64,000 nucleotides of DNA from Pseudodesulfovibrio aespoeensis Aspo-2. Its GTDB lineage: Bacteria; Desulfobacterota; Desulfovibrionia; Desulfovibrionales; Desulfovibrionaceae. The notes under the pieces were generated by a model. That model had not been told where the DNA came from and did not search any database. It saw nothing but the letters and a program-made list of their open reading frames with translations. The stretch spans positions 1,674,001-1,738,000 of the forward strand of contig NC_014844.1 of NCBI RefSeq assembly GCF_000176915.2. Direction: 5' to 3'. This document shows, one piece after another, positions 25,372-31,070 of this stretch (position 1 is the first letter of the stretch; the number at the start of each line of letters is the position of its first letter). A program made the position numbers and the translations under genes.

Positions 25372-26979
25372 TTAGCAGAGACCGTCCCAGCAGAGGTCAA
25401 GGTGCGTGCTCTCCATGCGTCGGGTGGCGAGGCTGACGCCCACGGCCAGGGCCAGGGACACGGGCAGGGCGACCACGTTGGGGTCCACCCACTGCATCAG
25501 CCACATCCACGAACCCGGCTCTCCGCCCGCGGCCAGCGAGGGCTGGCCGGTGATGGCGGCGCACAGGCCGATGGACGCGGATTCCTGAAGGTGGACGAAG
25601 AGCAGCCAGAACATGGACACCCCGAACCCGCCCACCATGGATATTTTTGCACCGATCTTGGTCATGCCCTTCCAGTACAGGCCGAGCACGTAGATGGGCA
25701 GGAACGACGCCGCGCACAGGCCGAAAAAGAAGGCCGTGGCCCTGGCGATGATGTTGCCCGGCAGCACCCAGGCCCAGACCAGGGTGGCGAAGACCGCGAT
25801 GATCACGCCGAGCCGGTTGAGCTTCATGGATGATCCGCCGTTGCCGATGGTCACATGCTGCTCCAGGAAGTCGCGGGCCAGGGAGGTGCCGCTCACATGA
25901 TACTGGGAGCTCATGGTGGACATGGCCGCCGCAAACATGGCCACCAGGAAAAGGCCGGAGAACCAGCCGGGCATGATCTTGTCGATGTACAGGGGGATGA
26001 TCCTGTCGAAGTTGCCCTCGGCCATGGCAATGGATATCTTGCCGAATTCATTCTGGAAGACGACATTAGACAAGGCGCCGACCACAAAGGCCACGCCGGT
26101 CATCAGCAGGATGAAGATGCCGCCGATAGCCACGGCCCGGTTGAGTTCGCGGTCAGACGGCACGGTCATGTAGCGCACGGCCAGTTGCGGCTGGGCCAGC
26201 ACGCCGATGCCAACGCCGTAGACCAATGTGGTGTAGATGGTCAGGCCGATGGGCGAGTTGATGTCCGGTCCTGTTGTCCAGCCGGTCATGCCGCCCGCCT
26301 TGAGTTTTTCGGGCACCAGGGCGACCATGTCGGTCAGGGCCTGATGGGCGTCGGTCACGCCGCCGAGCAGGACGTAGGTGGTGATGATCAGGATGAGCAT
26401 CATCACGGCCATGATGCTGCCCTGAAAGGCGTCGGTGTACATGACGGCGCGCAGCCCGCCGGTGACCACGTACATGGCCACCAGGGCGGTGACGATGAGC
26501 AGCCACGCCCCGTAGCTGACCATGGGAAAGGCCACTTCGAGCATCCGGCAGATGCCGATGAGCACCGCGGCAGCGTAGATGGGCATGAACAGAAAAATGA
26601 GCACGCCTGAGAACTGCTGGACAAACTTGGAGTGATACCGTCTGCCCAGGAGTTCTGGAAAGGTATGGGAGTTGAGGGCCAGCCCCATGCGCCGGGTCCG
26701 CTTGCCGAAGACGACCATGGCGATGAAGACGCCCACGAAGATGGTCAGGAAGGTCAGCCACAGCATGGACATGCCGAACATGCCCGACACGCCGCCGAAC
26801 CCGACGATGGCCGAGGTGGAGACAAAGGTTGCGCCATAGGACATGGCCAGGATGAACGGGTTCATCTGCCGCCCGGCGAGCATGTAGTCCGTGGACCGGC
26901 TGGTCTGCTTCCACGCCTTGTAGCCAAGGTAGAAGATGCCGACGAGGTAGACGAGGATGCCAAGTATCTTGCCTTCCAT
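25372..26979 (-). CDS. Sodium:solute symporter (SSS family), proposed Phe/aromatic amino acid uptake
   Basis: 535 residues with about 13 membrane helices and the SSS hallmarks: an N-terminal helix followed by YMLAGRQMNPFILAMSYGATFVSTSAIVGFGG, the GGLRAVMYTDAFQGSIM motif of the PutP/PanF group, and AMFAAAMSTMSSQYHVSGTSLARDF with Ser/Thr residues of the Na2 site. It follows a 48-residue membrane peptide with stop and start touching (TAA ATG), so they are coupled. The family carries proline, pantothenate, acetate and others; sequence alone does not give the substrate. The Phe-rich attenuator upstream argues for phenylalanine or a related amino acid; this is inference. Confidence 0.92.
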   Translation of the reverse strand: MEGKILGILVYLVGIFYLGYKAWKQTSRSTDYMLAGRQMNPFILAMSYGATFVSTSAIVGFGGVSGMFGMSMLWLTFLTIFVGVFIAMVVFGKRTRRMGLALNSHTFPELLGRRYHSKFVQQFSGVLIFLFMPIYAAAVLIGICRMLEVAFPMVSYGAWLLIVTALVAMYVVTGGLRAVMYTDAFQGSIMAVMMLILIITTYVLLGGVTDAHQALTDMVALVPEKLKAGGMTGWTTGPDINSPIGLTIYTTLVYGVGIGVLAQPQLAVRYMTVPSDRELNRAVAIGGIFILLMTGVAFVVGALSNVVFQNEFGKISIAMAEGNFDRIIPLYIDKIMPGWFSGLFLVAMFAAAMSTMSSQYHVSGTSLARDFLEQHVTIGNGGSSMKLNRLGVIIAVFATLVWAWVLPGNIIARATAFFFGLCAASFLPIYVLGLYWKGMTKIGAKISMVGGFGVSMFWLLFVHLQESASIGLCAAITGQPSLAAGGEPGSWMWLMQWVDPNVVALPVSLALAVGVSLATRRMESTHLDLCWDGLC

Positions 26980-27126
26980 TTACAGATCCTCCTCGTGCAC
27001 GGTCTTGCCCGCCTGTGCGCCGGTGTTGTTCCAGTTCACAATTCCGTAAACGATGCACAGGGCCGCAGACCCGATGCTCAACCAGAAAGCCACTGCGATT
27101 TCAATGCTGCCAAAGCCCATCATCAT
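26980..27126 (-). CDS. Small membrane accessory peptide of the symporter (48 aa)
   Basis: A 48-residue peptide missed by length cut-offs. It starts at a run of three ATG codons (27126-27118), with AGAGGAG 9 bases upstream, and ends TAA directly before the symporter ATG. One hydrophobic helix (about residues 9-30, EIAVAFWLSIGSAALCIVYGIV) is followed by NWNN and a charged tail ending VHEEDL. Short single-helix partners directly upstream of SSS symporters recur in sulfate reducers and are annotated as symporter small accessory proteins; I base the call on position and shape. It would be the first structural gene after the attenuator. Confidence 0.8.
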   Translation of the reverse strand: MMMGFGSIEIAVAFWLSIGSAALCIVYGIVNWNNTGAQAGKTVHEEDL

Positions 27127-27169
27127 GCCCGTTTACTCCTCTGATTTTCGGCCCCAGGTCCAACCGGCG

Positions 27170-27213
27170 GAAGACAAAAGAAAAGGGCCGCCGGCTGGTT
27201 GCCTGCGGCCCTT
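27170..27213 (-). terminator. Attenuator terminator upstream of the symporter pair
   Basis: Minus strand stem AAGGGCCGC (27213-27205) with GCGGCCCTT (27191-27183), extended inside by GCC/GGC, then TTCTTTTGTCTT. It lies between a Phe-rich leader peptide and the accessory-peptide gene, 57 bases before that gene, so it is positioned to stop transcription before the structural genes. Confidence 0.85.
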
Positions 27214-27265
27214 GTTGTGTCTGTACTTCCGTTAAAGATTACTCGCACACCCCAAGACCGCAGGC
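27201..27265 (-). promoter_or_regulatory. Predicted antiterminator pairing
   Basis: Minus strand GCCTGCGG (27265-27258), located just after the Phe codons inside the leader gene, is exactly complementary to CCGCAGGC (27208-27201) in the first arm and loop of the terminator. If formed it would destroy the terminator. A competing pairing, ACCGC (27312-27308) with GCGGT (27261-27257), brackets the Phe run and could act as the protector. A ribosome stalled on Phe codons would cover the first strand and favour antitermination. Confidence 0.65.
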
Positions 27266-27376
27266 GCTTCTAAAAAAGCGGAAGCCAAAAAAGAAAAAGA
27301 AGCCGAAGCGGTTCTGGTGCGAGTTCATGGGCATTTCATAATTCAAAAGTTCGCGGGCTGTCAAGCGGATACCCAT
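27239..27376 (-). CDS. Phenylalanine-rich leader peptide (attenuation control)
   Basis: A short frame of 45 codons from ATG 27376 (with GAGGATGATACC upstream), or 29 codons from ATG 27328, ending TAA at 27239. Its core reads FGFFFFFGFRFF: nine Phe in twelve codons (27307-27272), all TTC or TTT. The rest shows no membrane or enzyme motif. The Phe run is followed by an antiterminator sequence and an intrinsic terminator, the arrangement of pheL and pheM leaders in enterics. Low charged Phe-tRNA should stall ribosomes here and allow read-through into the symporter genes. Which ATG is used is open: a TTGACA/TATGAA promoter inside the longer frame would start the message near 27328. Confidence 0.75.
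   Translation of the reverse strand: MGIRLTARELLNYEMPMNSHQNRFGFFFFFGFRFFRSACGLGVCE
27335..27364 (-). promoter_or_regulatory. Candidate promoter of the leader/symporter operon
   Basis: Minus strand TTGACA (27364-27359), 18-base spacer, TATGAA (27340-27335), identical in both boxes and spacing to the apt promoter. Transcription would begin near 27328, at or next to the ATG of the short form of the leader peptide, implying leaderless translation. If the longer leader ORF is used, the true promoter lies further upstream. Confidence 0.5.
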
Positions 27377-27750
27377 GGTATCATCCTCTATAATGGTCGA
27401 TTGGAATCAGGCCATTGTCCTGCGAACACGGTTCTACAATTATGTAGCTTTCCAACTCCTATTTTGTGGGTTCATTGGTGTATCTCCGGTCATGAGCAGT
27501 TCGGCTGTGAATGGGGCAAAGTCATGGCAGGGGTGTCGCCCCCAGGCCGGGAGCCTGAATTGACACGTAATAAATTCAAGCATTCAAGGCGATTAAAAGT
27601 TTTCTTGACAGCTTTATGCTTCCTGTGCTTTTGTGACTCCCCTTCACAAGAAGAGCATTTGCCTGAATTGTGAAAAGCCGAAAACGGTGCCGCTGTCATC
27701 TCGTGCAAACGATGACTTTTTTGGCAACCAAACGAAAGAGGGTACCCGCC
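27377..27750. other. Divergent intergenic region between the symporter leader and glutamate synthase
   Basis: 374 bases, AT-richer than the genes. It holds two exact TTGACA boxes on the plus strand (27560-27565 and 27605-27610) that could serve the glutamate synthase operon, though neither has a convincing -10 at 16-19 bases. On the plus strand there are also a CAGGC/GCCTG hairpin near 27542-27556 and a CTACAATTATGTAG near-palindrome near 27433-27446. No gene is supported. Confidence 0.5.
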
Positions 27751-29277
27751 TTGCTGTTTCAACCCGTCAATAAAAACTACCATGAGTTTTGCATTGACCG
27801 CGATCCCGACCTGTGCATCAACTGCAAGGTCTGCGTGCGTCAGTGTTCCTATCAGGCCCATTACTTTGACGAGGCCCGGCAAAAGGTCATGCACGACAAC
27901 ACCAAGTGTATCGGCTGCCATCGCTGCGAGGCGCTCTGTCCCACGGCTGCCCTGAACATCCGCAACAAGCCCTCGGATTTCAGGGCCAACAAACTGTGGC
28001 GGCCCGTGTTCCTCCAGAACATCTACAAGCAGGCGGACACCGGAGGCGTGTTGCTGGCGGGGATGGGCTCGCCGGTTGACATCCCAGTCTACTGGGACCG
28101 CATGCTGCTCGACGCCAGCCAGGTGACAAACCCGTCCATTGACCCGTTGCGTGAGCCCATGGAGCTCAAGACCTTTCTCGGAGCCAAGCCGAGGCAGCTC
28201 AAGATCGAAACCGACAAAAACGGCAAATCCACCCTCAAGACCAAACTCTCCCCGCAGATCGAGCTCGATGTACCCATCATGTTTGCGGCCATGAGCTTCG
28301 GGGCAATCAATTTCAATCTGCATCAGGCCATGGCCCGCGCGGCCACCGAGATGGGCACGGTCTACAACACCGGCGAGGGCGGCCTGCACAAGTCCCTCTA
28401 CAAGTACGGCAAGAACACCATTGTCCAGGTGGCCTCGGGCCGTTTCGGCGTGCATCTCGACTATCTCAAGGCGGGCGTGGGCATCGAAATCAAGGTGGGG
28501 CAGGGCGCCAAGCCCGGCATCGGGGGCCATCTGCCCGGTGAAAAGATCAACAACATGGTCTCCGAGACGCGCATGGTGCCCATCGGGTCCGACGCCATCT
28601 CCCCGGCCCCGCACCACGACATCTATTCCATCGAGGACCTGCTCCAGCTCATCTTTGCCCTCAAGGAGGCCTCGGAGTACAAGGTGCCGGTGGCCGTCAA
28701 GATCGCGGCGGTGCACAACGTGGCCGCCATCGCCTCGGGCATTGTCCGGGCGGGCGCGGACATCGTCACCATCGACGGCATGCGCGGCGGCACGGGCGCG
28801 GCCCCGGCCATGATCCGCGACAACGTGGGCATTCCCATCGAGCTGGCCCTGGCCCAGGTGGACCAGCGGCTGCGCGACGAGGGCATCCGCAACCAGGCGT
28901 CCATCGTGGCCGCGGGCGGCATCCGCTGCTCGGCGGACGTGGTCAAGGCCATCGCGCTGGGCGCGGACGCCGTGTACATCGGCACGGCCACCCTCATCGC
29001 CGTGGGCTGCACCATCTGTGGCCGCTGCTACACCGGCAAGTGCCCCTGGGGCATCGCCACCAACGACCCCAAGCTCTCCAAGCGGCAGAATCCGGACATC
29101 GCGGCCAAGAAGCTCTCGAATCTGCTCCGCGCCTGGGGCCACGAGATCGAGGAGATGCTCGGCGGCATGGGGCTCAATTCCATTGAGAGCCTGCGCGGCA
29201 ACCGCGACAAGCTGCGCGGGGTCGGCCTTTCCGACACGGAACTCGACATCCTCGGCATCAAGCACGCCGGGCGCTAG
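27751..29277 (+). CDS. Glutamate synthase, FMN/Fe-S synthase subunit (archaeal-type, with ferredoxin domain)
   Basis: About 508 residues. An N-terminal two-cluster ferredoxin domain has Cys22/25/28/32 and Cys53/56/59/63. The FMN-binding glutamate synthase domain follows, with IMFAAMSFGAINFNLHQAMARAA, GEGGLHKSLYKYG, KVGQGAKPGIGGHLPG and IDGMRGGTGAAPAM. The cluster motif VGCTICGRCYTGKCPWGIA, typical of the synthase 3Fe-4S site, is at about residue 419. It combines ammonia and 2-oxoglutarate to glutamate. The TTG at 27751 is chosen because GAGGG is well placed and the family N-terminus (LFQPVNKNYHEF) starts there; an ATG at 27712 lacks a ribosome site. It is the first gene of a five-gene split glutamate synthase operon. 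Confidence 0.9.
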   Translation: MLFQPVNKNYHEFCIDRDPDLCINCKVCVRQCSYQAHYFDEARQKVMHDNTKCIGCHRCEALCPTAALNIRNKPSDFRANKLWRPVFLQNIYKQADTGGVLLAGMGSPVDIPVYWDRMLLDASQVTNPSIDPLREPMELKTFLGAKPRQLKIETDKNGKSTLKTKLSPQIELDVPIMFAAMSFGAINFNLHQAMARAATEMGTVYNTGEGGLHKSLYKYGKNTIVQVASGRFGVHLDYLKAGVGIEIKVGQGAKPGIGGHLPGEKINNMVSETRMVPIGSDAISPAPHHDIYSIEDLLQLIFALKEASEYKVPVAVKIAAVHNVAAIASGIVRAGADIVTIDGMRGGTGAAPAMIRDNVGIPIELALAQVDQRLRDEGIRNQASIVAAGGIRCSADVVKAIALGADAVYIGTATLIAVGCTICGRCYTGKCPWGIATNDPKLSKRQNPDIAAKKLSNLLRAWGHEIEEMLGGMGLNSIESLRGNRDKLRGVGLSDTELDILGIKHAGR

Positions 29278-29289
29278 ACGGAGAACGCC

Positions 29290-29736
29290 ATGAAAAGAGT
29301 CTACCCCGACAAATCCTACTGTATCGGCTGCCATCTCTGCGAGCTGGCCTGCATCACCGCCCATTCCGCGAGCAAGGATATCATCATCGCCTACCGCGAC
29401 GAGCGCGCGGCAACCGGCCTCTCGCCCTGCAAGCGCGTGTTCGAGAAGGGCGACACCTGCGTGGCCATCAGCTGCCGCCACTGCGACGAGCCGTCCTGCG
29501 TGGCGGCCTGCATCTCGGGCGGACTTTACAAGGACCCCGAAACCGGGCGCACCGTGTACGACCGCGACAAGTGCGTGGGCTGCTGGTCCTGCCTCATGGC
29601 CTGTCCCTACGGGGCCATCCGCAGGCACCCCATCGAGAACAAGATCGTCAAGTGCGACCTGTGCGAGGGCAGGGCGGAAGGCCCGGCCTGTGTCCAGGCA
29701 TGCCCCAACGCGGCCCTGAAGTACGAGGAGCGGTAG
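29290..29736 (+). CDS. 4Fe-4S ferredoxin-type electron transfer subunit
   Basis: A 148-residue HycB/DmsB-like iron-sulfur protein with four cysteine groups: CIGCHLCELAC at the start, CRHCDEPSCVAAC, CVGCWSCLMACP, and CDLCEGRAEGPACVQACP, enough for up to four clusters. It sits between the synthase and the flavoprotein subunits and probably passes electrons from the latter to the former. The start ATG is 12 bases after the synthase stop, with GGAGAACGCC upstream. Confidence 0.92.
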   Translation: MKRVYPDKSYCIGCHLCELACITAHSASKDIIIAYRDERAATGLSPCKRVFEKGDTCVAISCRHCDEPSCVAACISGGLYKDPETGRTVYDRDKCVGCWSCLMACPYGAIRRHPIENKIVKCDLCEGRAEGPACVQACPNAALKYEER

Positions 29737-29768
29737 CCGCCGCGCGACCATAATCCACGAGGTCAATC

Positions 29769-31070
29769 ATGAAATATGTCATCATAGGCAACGGCATCGC
29801 CTCCATCGGGGCCATCGAGGGCATCCGCAAGGTCGATGCCGCAAGCGAGATACTGGTCATCGGAGCCGAGGATTCCCCGGCCTACGGGCGTCCGCTCATC
29901 TCCTACCTGCTGGCGGGCAAGATCGGCCCGGACAGGCTCTCCCTGCGGCCCAGGGAATTCTACGAGAAGAGCAACGTCACCCTGAAGCTCGGCACCACGG
30001 TCACGGCCATCGACATCGCTGCCCAGACCGTGACCACGGACAGGGGCGAGACCATCGGCTACGAGAACCTGCTCATCGCCACGGGCGGCATCCCCTTCAC
30101 CCCGCCCATCCCCGGCGCGGACGGATCCGACGTGTACAACTTCACCAATCTGGCCCACGCCCAGACCCTCATCGCCAAGGCCCGCGAGATCAAGCGGGCC
30201 GTGGTCATCGGCGGCGGGCTCATCGGCCTCAAGGCGGGCGAGTCGCTCTTTGACCGGGGCGTGGAGGTGACCATCCTCGAACTCTCGCCGCGCATCTTAA
30301 GCCTCGCCTTTGACGAAAACGCCGCGTCGCTCGCGGGCGGCAGGCTGGCCGAGGTGGGGCTGGCCGTGCGCTGCGGCGTGTCGGCCAAGGAGATTCAGCG
30401 CGACAGCGCGGGCAATCTCAAGGGGGTGCACCTGACCGACGGCGACTTCCTCCAGACCGACGTGGTGGTCATCGCCATCGGCGTGGTGCCCAACTACGGG
30501 CTGGCCAAGGCGTCCGGCATCGAGGTGGACCGGGGCATCAAGGTGGACGACCACATGCGCGCCAGCGCGCAAGGCGTGTTCGCGGCGGGCGACGTGGCCC
30601 AAGCCAGGGATCTGCTTTTTGGCGACGACCGGGTCATCCCCATCTGGACCAACGCCTACAACCAGGGCTTTTGTGCGGGCAAGAACATGGCCGGGGCGGA
30701 CATCCGGTTCATCGGCAGCCTGGCCATGAACTCCATCAGCTTCTACGGCCTGCCGACCATCTCGGTGGGCACGGTCAACCCGCCCGAGGGCGATCCCGCC
30801 TACGAGGTGTCCATCACCTTGGACGAAAAGAAGAAAAGCTACCGCAAGCTCGTGTTCCAGAACGACCATCTGGTGGGCTATGTCCTGGTGGGCGACATCG
30901 ACATGGCAGGCATGTACACGGCCTTTGTCAAGTTCCAGATGCCCATCCCCGAGGAGGCGCGCAAGCAGCTCGTGGCCGGCGCGCCGGACGTGCTCATGTG
31001 GCCCGACGACTTCTTCCGGGAGACCTGGAATCCTGGGCGCGAGGCCTGGAATCCGGGGACTCACGAATAA
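29769..31070 (+). CDS. NAD(P)/FAD-dependent oxidoreductase (glutamate synthase reductase subunit)
   Basis: A 433-residue flavoprotein of the pyridine nucleotide-disulfide/NirB-like group. FAD-binding motif at the N-terminus IIGNGIASIGAIEGI; NAD(P)-binding VVIGGGLIGLKAGESLFDRG at about residues 145-164; second FAD motif GVFAAGDVAQA at about 272-282. The C-terminal 90 residues resemble the NirB/rubredoxin reductase tail. It ends with a repeated WNPG (WNPGREAWNPGTHE), apparently a small recent duplication. In context it should oxidise NAD(P)H and feed the ferredoxin and synthase subunits. Confidence 0.9.
   Translation: MKYVIIGNGIASIGAIEGIRKVDAASEILVIGAEDSPAYGRPLISYLLAGKIGPDRLSLRPREFYEKSNVTLKLGTTVTAIDIAAQTVTTDRGETIGYENLLIATGGIPFTPPIPGADGSDVYNFTNLAHAQTLIAKAREIKRAVVIGGGLIGLKAGESLFDRGVEVTILELSPRILSLAFDENAASLAGGRLAEVGLAVRCGVSAKEIQRDSAGNLKGVHLTDGDFLQTDVVVIAIGVVPNYGLAKASGIEVDRGIKVDDHMRASAQGVFAAGDVAQARDLLFGDDRVIPIWTNAYNQGFCAGKNMAGADIRFIGSLAMNSISFYGLPTISVGTVNPPEGDPAYEVSITLDEKKKSYRKLVFQNDHLVGYVLVGDIDMAGMYTAFVKFQMPIPEEARKQLVAGAPDVLMWPDDFFRETWNPGREAWNPGTHE

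Follow-up and report, generated by a model that had tools for sequence, protein, structure and literature searches.

A predicted leaderless phenylalanine-codon attenuator upstream of an SSS-family sodium symporter in Pseudodesulfovibrio aespoeensis Aspo-2

The window, the 64,000-nucleotide stretch of DNA analysed here, is part of the single 3,629,109-bp contig of the P. aespoeensis Aspo-2 genome. On its minus strand, a gene for a 535-aa SSS-family sodium:solute symporter (25372-26979; Pfam PF00474, 171.4 bits) follows directly on one for a 48-aa protein (26980-27126) that matches the symporter small accessory protein family NF045580 (51.9 bits, cut-off 35). These are the membrane peptide and SSS symporter of the preliminary description, with the peptide now assigned to a family. 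Nine NCBIfam models matched the symporter itself, each with a score under its cut-off, the best being that of the proline carrier PutP (TIGR02121; 189 bits against a cut-off of 515.5). On the plus strand, a divergent set of glutamate synthase-like, ferredoxin-like and NAD(P)/FAD oxidoreductase genes occupies 27742-31067; the last of these is closest to NF045765 (PadH), under the cut-off of that model.

Upstream of the accessory gene, FGFFFFFGFRFF places nine Phe residues in 12 codons inside a minus-strand ORF running from 27376 to 27239, as previously described. The ATG at 27376 did not hold up as the start of this ORF, however, being unconserved in orthologs, where conservation begins at the ATG at 27328. 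A conserved -35 box (27364-27359) sits between the two ATGs, such that the longer ORF would begin upstream of the predicted promoter; an SD-like GAGG is found upstream of the unconserved ATG. From sequence and ortholog comparison, translation probably starts at 27328 rather than at 27376. The predicted leader peptide ORF is then 29 codons long (MNSHQNRFGFFFFFGFRFFRSACGLGVCE; 27239-27328, minus strand) with Phe codons at 27307-27272 and the stop codon at 27241-27239, and qualifies, by sequence, as a short reading frame enriched in codons for the presumed regulatory amino acid. Among close orthologs, defined by a symporter identity of at least 77% and a visible upstream region, the Phe run is present in all 28 distinct upstream regions, and the 27 tabulated leaders each have 6-10 Phe codons. 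Both Phe codons are used (143 TTT and 59 TTC at the Phe positions of 23 leaders of equal length). The sets compared below comprise these leaders, other symporter leaders, and leaders found with a covariance model before two biosynthetic loci, a second ADH (2-amino-3,7-dideoxy-D-threo-hept-6-ulosonate) synthase gene, here ADH-synthase-2, and an aro-trp supraoperon.

A promoter is predicted at 27336-27364 on the minus strand, consisting of a -35 TTGACA (27364-27359), a 17-nt spacer and a weak -10 TTATGA (27341-27336). A consensus scan of the window detected neither this promoter, because the -10 is poor in this species, nor the leader terminator, because of one A.G mismatch in the stem; the promoter therefore rests on ortholog comparison. 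In all 28 distinct close orthologs, the closest in-frame leader ATG follows TTGAC at a distance of 35-37 nt. When the start was taken as the in-frame ATG closest upstream of the aromatic run, irrespective of TTGAC, the box was found 35-39 nt upstream in 28/28 close-ortholog, 29/37 other symporter, 20/21 ADH-synthase-2 and 19/19 supraoperon leaders (96/105 in total). The remaining nine include the six Tyr leaders described below and L164, all of which carry TTGAC 36-37 nt ahead of an earlier in-frame ATG, L064_4137, where the box is at 36 nt once the correct frame is taken, and L049, which has TTGAG instead. With alternative ATGs and frames counted, the spacing thus holds in 104/105 leaders. 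The distance from the best -10 hexamer to the ATG was 6-11 nt in the commonest classes, with up to eight classes listed per set. The leaders do not show an E. coli-like Shine-Dalgarno start: SD-like 4-mers at -16 to -5 occur in only 3/28, 4/37, 2/21 and 0/19 leaders (9/105; one of the 37, L064_4137, was scored without an ATG in frame). Because TTGAC is conserved 35-39 nt before the leader ATG, we predict that the leader mRNA is leaderless, with a transcript start at about the A of the ATG at 27328. At g13 loci (for example L044, L045 and L046), we also noted an inverted repeat, AGTAAG..CTTACT, between the leader -35 and -10, a possible repressor operator. Motifs resembling CGTATCGAT are present upstream of the -35 in L024, L027, L030 and L031 and could bind a regulator.

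Three helices can be drawn in the minus-strand RNA. The protector (1:2) hairpin (27257-27312) pairs ACCGC (27312-27308) with GCGGT (27261-27257) and, inside this, CGCTT (27280-27276) with AAGCG (27269-27265). Region 2, the 5´ arm of the antiterminator (GCCTGCGGTCTT; 27254-27265), pairs with 27212-27201 in region 3 (AAGGGCCGCAGGC; 27201-27213), which helix comparison and folding show to be common to the antiterminator and the terminator. The 8-base pairing reported earlier is exact, GCCTGCGG at 27265-27258 matching CCGCAGGC at 27208-27201, and reaches 12 pairs when G-U pairs are counted. The intrinsic terminator (3:4; 27171-27213) was likewise recovered by folding and alignment, with a hairpin at 27213-27183 and a T-rich tail to 27171 (-24.2 kcal/mol, z -5.58). 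A terminator, an antiterminator that excludes it and a protector are therefore all present.

Helix statistics were taken from an alignment of 27 close-ortholog leaders. For the terminator, 94.3% of the cells were paired, with three pairs changed on both sides. The protector was paired in 97.7% of cells and also had three doubly changed pairs, a covariation reached by one of 500 shuffles; an outer extension of it, 71.4% paired with 22 doubly changed cells, is present in some species and absent in others. The antiterminator was paired in 96.3% of cells versus 36.6-48.1% when the arms were slid, while its covariation in these leaders was no better than that of shuffles (238/500). In L023 all three arms are altered together (CCGT/ACGG/CCGT). 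Thus, when Phe codon conservation and compensatory stem changes were sought, as had been proposed, the Phe run was kept and the terminator and protector covaried, but antiterminator covariation did not exceed that of shuffles. An automated test found a terminator between the leader and the first gene in 28/28 close orthologs and 33/36 other symporter leaders; the three it missed, as well as L049, gave on folding a hairpin whose tail is interrupted or T-rich. The 2:3 helix was significant relative to shuffles (p <= 0.05) in 24/28 close-ortholog, 33/33 other symporter, 21/21 ADH-synthase-2 and 17/18 supraoperon leaders, the last miss being the supraoperon leader of this genome (L174). In the count of 24/28, L036 was scored on the wrong ORF and region 2 was cut off in L024, L026, L029, L030 and L032 by a late Phe codon; these five pair at 11 of the 12 antiterminator positions in the alignment. 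Folding of the window RNA gave the ACCGC:GCGGT helix but a different inner protector helix. Without regions 1 and 4, the RNA folds as the antiterminator (-35.6 kcal/mol), and with region 4 fully transcribed the lowest-energy fold is the terminator even without region 1. The switch must therefore be kinetic, depending on the sequence in which the regions are transcribed, as classical attenuation does.

We surveyed 297 genomes of the order and found the symporter, at E 1e-80 or better, in 70 of them at 81 listed places, of which 78 were examined (both G047 places and one of G289 were left out). An aromatic-codon leader precedes the symporter at 65 of the 78 loci, with 58 leaders carrying Phe codons, six Tyr codons and one both (L059, from another family). 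Of the other 13, L011 has only 156 nt of contig upstream, L057_4430 lies second in a tandem pair, and the remaining 11 showed no aromatic leader. In a symporter tree, the rows with a leader fall into a single group of 67, which also includes L011 and L057_4430; its support is weak (88/50), becoming firm (99/88) once the leader-free L062 joins. Symporter homologs without the leader had been named as evidence against the proposal. Such loci exist (11/78), but all of them fall outside the weakly supported leader-bearing group. Named close matches to the symporter are mostly from Pseudodesulfovibrio. Beyond the order, no Phe leader was seen at 27 NF045580 loci outside the window, drawn from 37 listed places, one of them in the window, in 395 genomes of the phylum (29 non-window loci were taken, and L091 and L108 were excluded for contig ends).

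Tandem symporters provide a comparison of leader codons within single genomes. In six g6 genomes (L064-L069), the leader of copy 2 has Tyr codons opposite the Phe codons of copy 1, at 4, 5, 4, 5, 5 and 3 positions, respectively; in L065, for example, copy 1 reads NFFFAFFGFR and copy 2 SYFYAYYGYR. The copy 1 runs are not always pure Phe, with single Thr, Ile or Leu residues in places and one Tyr in L069. Past the run, the stretch CTGCGGATCGGTTGAGTG is nearly identical between the copies. In the tree, the Tyr-led symporters form one group (99/97) that adjoins the Phe-led copies and is nested among Phe-led symporters. The swap is not general, as both tandem copies in G170 are Phe-led and the second copy in G076 lacks a leader. 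Residue 298 (window protein numbering) was Phe in 58/58 Phe-led and Tyr in 6/6 Tyr-led proteins; it belongs to a set of 32 sites at which the two g6 copies are fixed for different residues, and is a lead only. Residues that distinguish Phe-led from Tyr-led symporters were also aligned to SGLT1.

The covariance model, built from the leader and run on this genome and its relatives, detected the same element before aromatic biosynthesis genes. One match in this genome is a leader with six Phe codons before the second ADH synthase gene (64.7 bits, E 1.4e-11). Another, L174, is a Phe/Tyr/Trp leader (45.8 bits, E 3.4e-7) before the supraoperon, in which genes for ADH synthase, DHQ synthase II, chorismate mutase-prephenate dehydratase (pheA) and EPSP synthase are followed by an ORF without a Pfam match and by trp genes (those scanned encode anthranilate synthase and a PLP enzyme). 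Eight weaker matches scored at most 27.3 bits, and the three that were read showed no leader. Among the matches listed, all 36 genomes of the genus had hits at E 1 or better. The 21 ADH-synthase-2 and 19 supraoperon leaders that were read are all rich in aromatic codons (40/40), and Trp codons are found in 19/19 supraoperon leaders, 0/21 ADH-synthase-2 leaders and 1/28 close-ortholog symporter leaders (L036, in the tail). Two genomes of the genus without the symporter, G109 and G163, keep both biosynthetic leaders. In a wider survey of ten genomes from six other genera, 27 of 33 listed matches were read. An F/Y/W leader was read before ADH-synthase-like genes in nine of the ten genomes (G027 being the exception), and both g18 genomes also have a Phe leader ahead of another ADH-synthase-like gene; at the settings used, no aromatic leader was found at five of the 27 matches (L189, L205, L211, L212 and L213; similarly L215). 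A Tyr-rich leader, MNNTHEILAASYSYYYSAGRAWGGWCVAR, was noted before an ADH-synthase-like gene in L206 (G217:C1:1355259-1355414; 32.9 bits), possibly another change of codon specificity.

The preliminary description had likened the logic of this locus to pheL/pheM attenuation. The conserved TTT/TTC run, the three mutually exclusive helices, the Phe/Tyr paralogs and the same element before aromatic biosynthesis genes bear this out, and we consider the leader and terminator to be a ribosome-mediated transcription attenuator of the pheL/trpL type with a probability of roughly 90%, judged from sequence comparison. Transcription would probably begin at the AUG of the leader itself. As long as charged Phe-tRNA suffices, the ribosome would reach the stop codon, which lies 12 nt beyond region 2, and cover part of region 2, allowing the 3:4 terminator to end transcription. 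When charged Phe-tRNA is scarce, the ribosome would stall in the Phe run and mask region 1; region 2 would then pair with region 3, and RNA polymerase would continue into the accessory peptide and symporter genes. If the leader is not translated, the 1:2 hairpin would allow the terminator to form. Phe shortage thus very probably switches the symporter on, and we infer, on good grounds, that it would activate import of Phe or of a different aromatic amino acid. If the element is an attenuator, the symporter would therefore be co-regulated with aromatic amino acid synthesis.

The data suggest, with somewhat better than even confidence in the scheme as a whole, that the Desulfovibrionales have an aromatic regulon of leaderless attenuators whose codons name the amino acid sensed: F/Y/W for aro-trp, Phe for the second ADH synthase gene, either Phe or Tyr for the SSS symporters and, in one genome, Phe for PaaK. 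In the same scheme, the symporter was duplicated in one genus, a Phe-to-Tyr swap followed, and the leader reads out the substrate of a transporter branch that has no other assignment. Since the element is common to aromatic synthesis and the codons are swapped between Phe and Tyr, we favour Phe and Tyr as substrates, the symporter most likely importing Phe and the Tyr-led paralogs Tyr; this assignment seems reasonably, although not strongly, probable.

Aryl acids can be converted to Phe. The same attenuator could govern import of phenylacetate, phenylpyruvate or a similar acid, converted to Phe in the cell, rather than of Phe itself, an alternative we regard as possible but rather doubtful. 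It draws on solved relatives, which include a monocarboxylate carrier, and on two genomes with PaaK-like phenylacetate-CoA ligase genes. In one g13 genome (G127; L218:1344-1520), a Phe leader, MLNHDLFSFFFFFFFRTEI, precedes such a gene, at L218:1566, whose product scores 621 bits, just below the 646 cut-off; this leader, predicted to be leaderless, has an ATG at 1380 with TTGAC 36 nt ahead, its own arms (CCGTGG/CCACGG) and a terminator. In G227 (L127/L219), a leader-free symporter gene lies downstream of a PaaK-like gene and a cluster for a branched-chain-type ABC transporter. This was the only case bearing on substrate among the 20 neighbours scanned from ORFs around 24 loci. Against import of aryl acids, the PaaK link is confined to these two genomes, the closest PaaK homolog in this genome (76% identity; L220, gene at G000:C1:1982669) has no Phe-rich leader, and the best NCBIfam model for the symporter is PutP, a proline carrier, though far below its cut-off. 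The region upstream of the L220 gene contains a TTGACT box 199 nt upstream, a short ORF and a hairpin resembling a terminator, and may be what is left of a decayed attenuator; with two Phe codons, the short ORF was rejected as a Phe leader.

Explanations that dispense with attenuation by the leader peptide fare worse. The peptide is hydrophobic and conserved and a second small membrane protein is encoded downstream, as might be expected if the Phe run were a functional membrane peptide and the terminator unrelated to it. This is very improbable given that Phe is replaced by Tyr in the paralogs and by F/Y/W before the aro-trp operon, that the C-terminal half tracks RNA pairing and that length and flanks vary. 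A pyrimidine-rich tract adjoining an ordinary terminator by chance has in its favour that the TTYx5 pattern is not telling by itself: it is listed at ten places (six distinct) in the 3.63-Mb genome, the other five distinct ones lying opposite open frames of 739, 505, 441, 68 and 67 aa. Conservation refutes this explanation, leaving it next to no probability, as the leader is kept in every close ortholog and in other genera. Nor is a T-box, a riboswitch or control of translation initiation at all likely. Six Rfam matches at E 10 or less were obtained in 27100-27420, none of which is a leader family or of such a kind, and the hairpin and T-tract end ~45 nt before the accessory gene start, leaving the ribosome-binding site free.

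If the attenuator reading is correct, regulation by itself indicates what an SSS branch named by no NCBIfam model transports (Phe, Tyr), the tandem symporters constitute a natural codon-swap experiment for attenuation, and leaderless attenuators extend to sulfate reducers with a transporter as the target. Among the matches listed in the open-access literature, no title or abstract described attenuation by a leader peptide upstream of an SSS symporter, or a leader-peptide attenuator in Pseudodesulfovibrio, which is weak evidence of absence, as subscription journals lie mostly outside that scope.

The E. coli pheL and pheM attenuators combine a Phe-codon leader, alternative 1:2, 2:3 and 3:4 hairpins and an intrinsic terminator. 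The element described here is alike in all three respects and differs in that its target is a sodium symporter, its leader is predicted to be leaderless and no Rfam leader family matches it. An attenuator upstream of the D. vulgaris aroA'-aroB'-pheA-aroF-tyrA-trp supraoperon was predicted from a prediction site (PMC1173090); the operon is of the same kind as that following L174, and its attenuator and L174 are plausibly the same element, although the excerpted text of that report describes no leader peptide, leaderless start or symporter. According to excerpts on S. meliloti trpL, the leader transcript begins with the ATG of the leader peptide (PMC7298713), in this case for a trp attenuator with a biosynthetic target in an alphaproteobacterium. 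Leaderless poly-Cys sORFs in mycobacteria (Canestrari 2020, as described in part of PMC9031893) similarly use a run of one codon as an attenuator, but with Cys and other targets. For Firmicutes, predicted His leader-peptide attenuators are mentioned in extracts of PMC9413887, differing in the amino acid and in concerning an ABC transporter. Phe and Tyr T-boxes precede amino acid transporters in Firmicutes, where adaptation to Phe after duplication of a Tyr element has been proposed (PMC2494555, in excerpt). This is codon-specified control of aromatic transporters as here, although by tRNA-dependent antitermination without a leader peptide and for NSS and NhaC rather than SSS carriers. Collectively, the mechanism is known, the target is unusual and the natural evidence is good.
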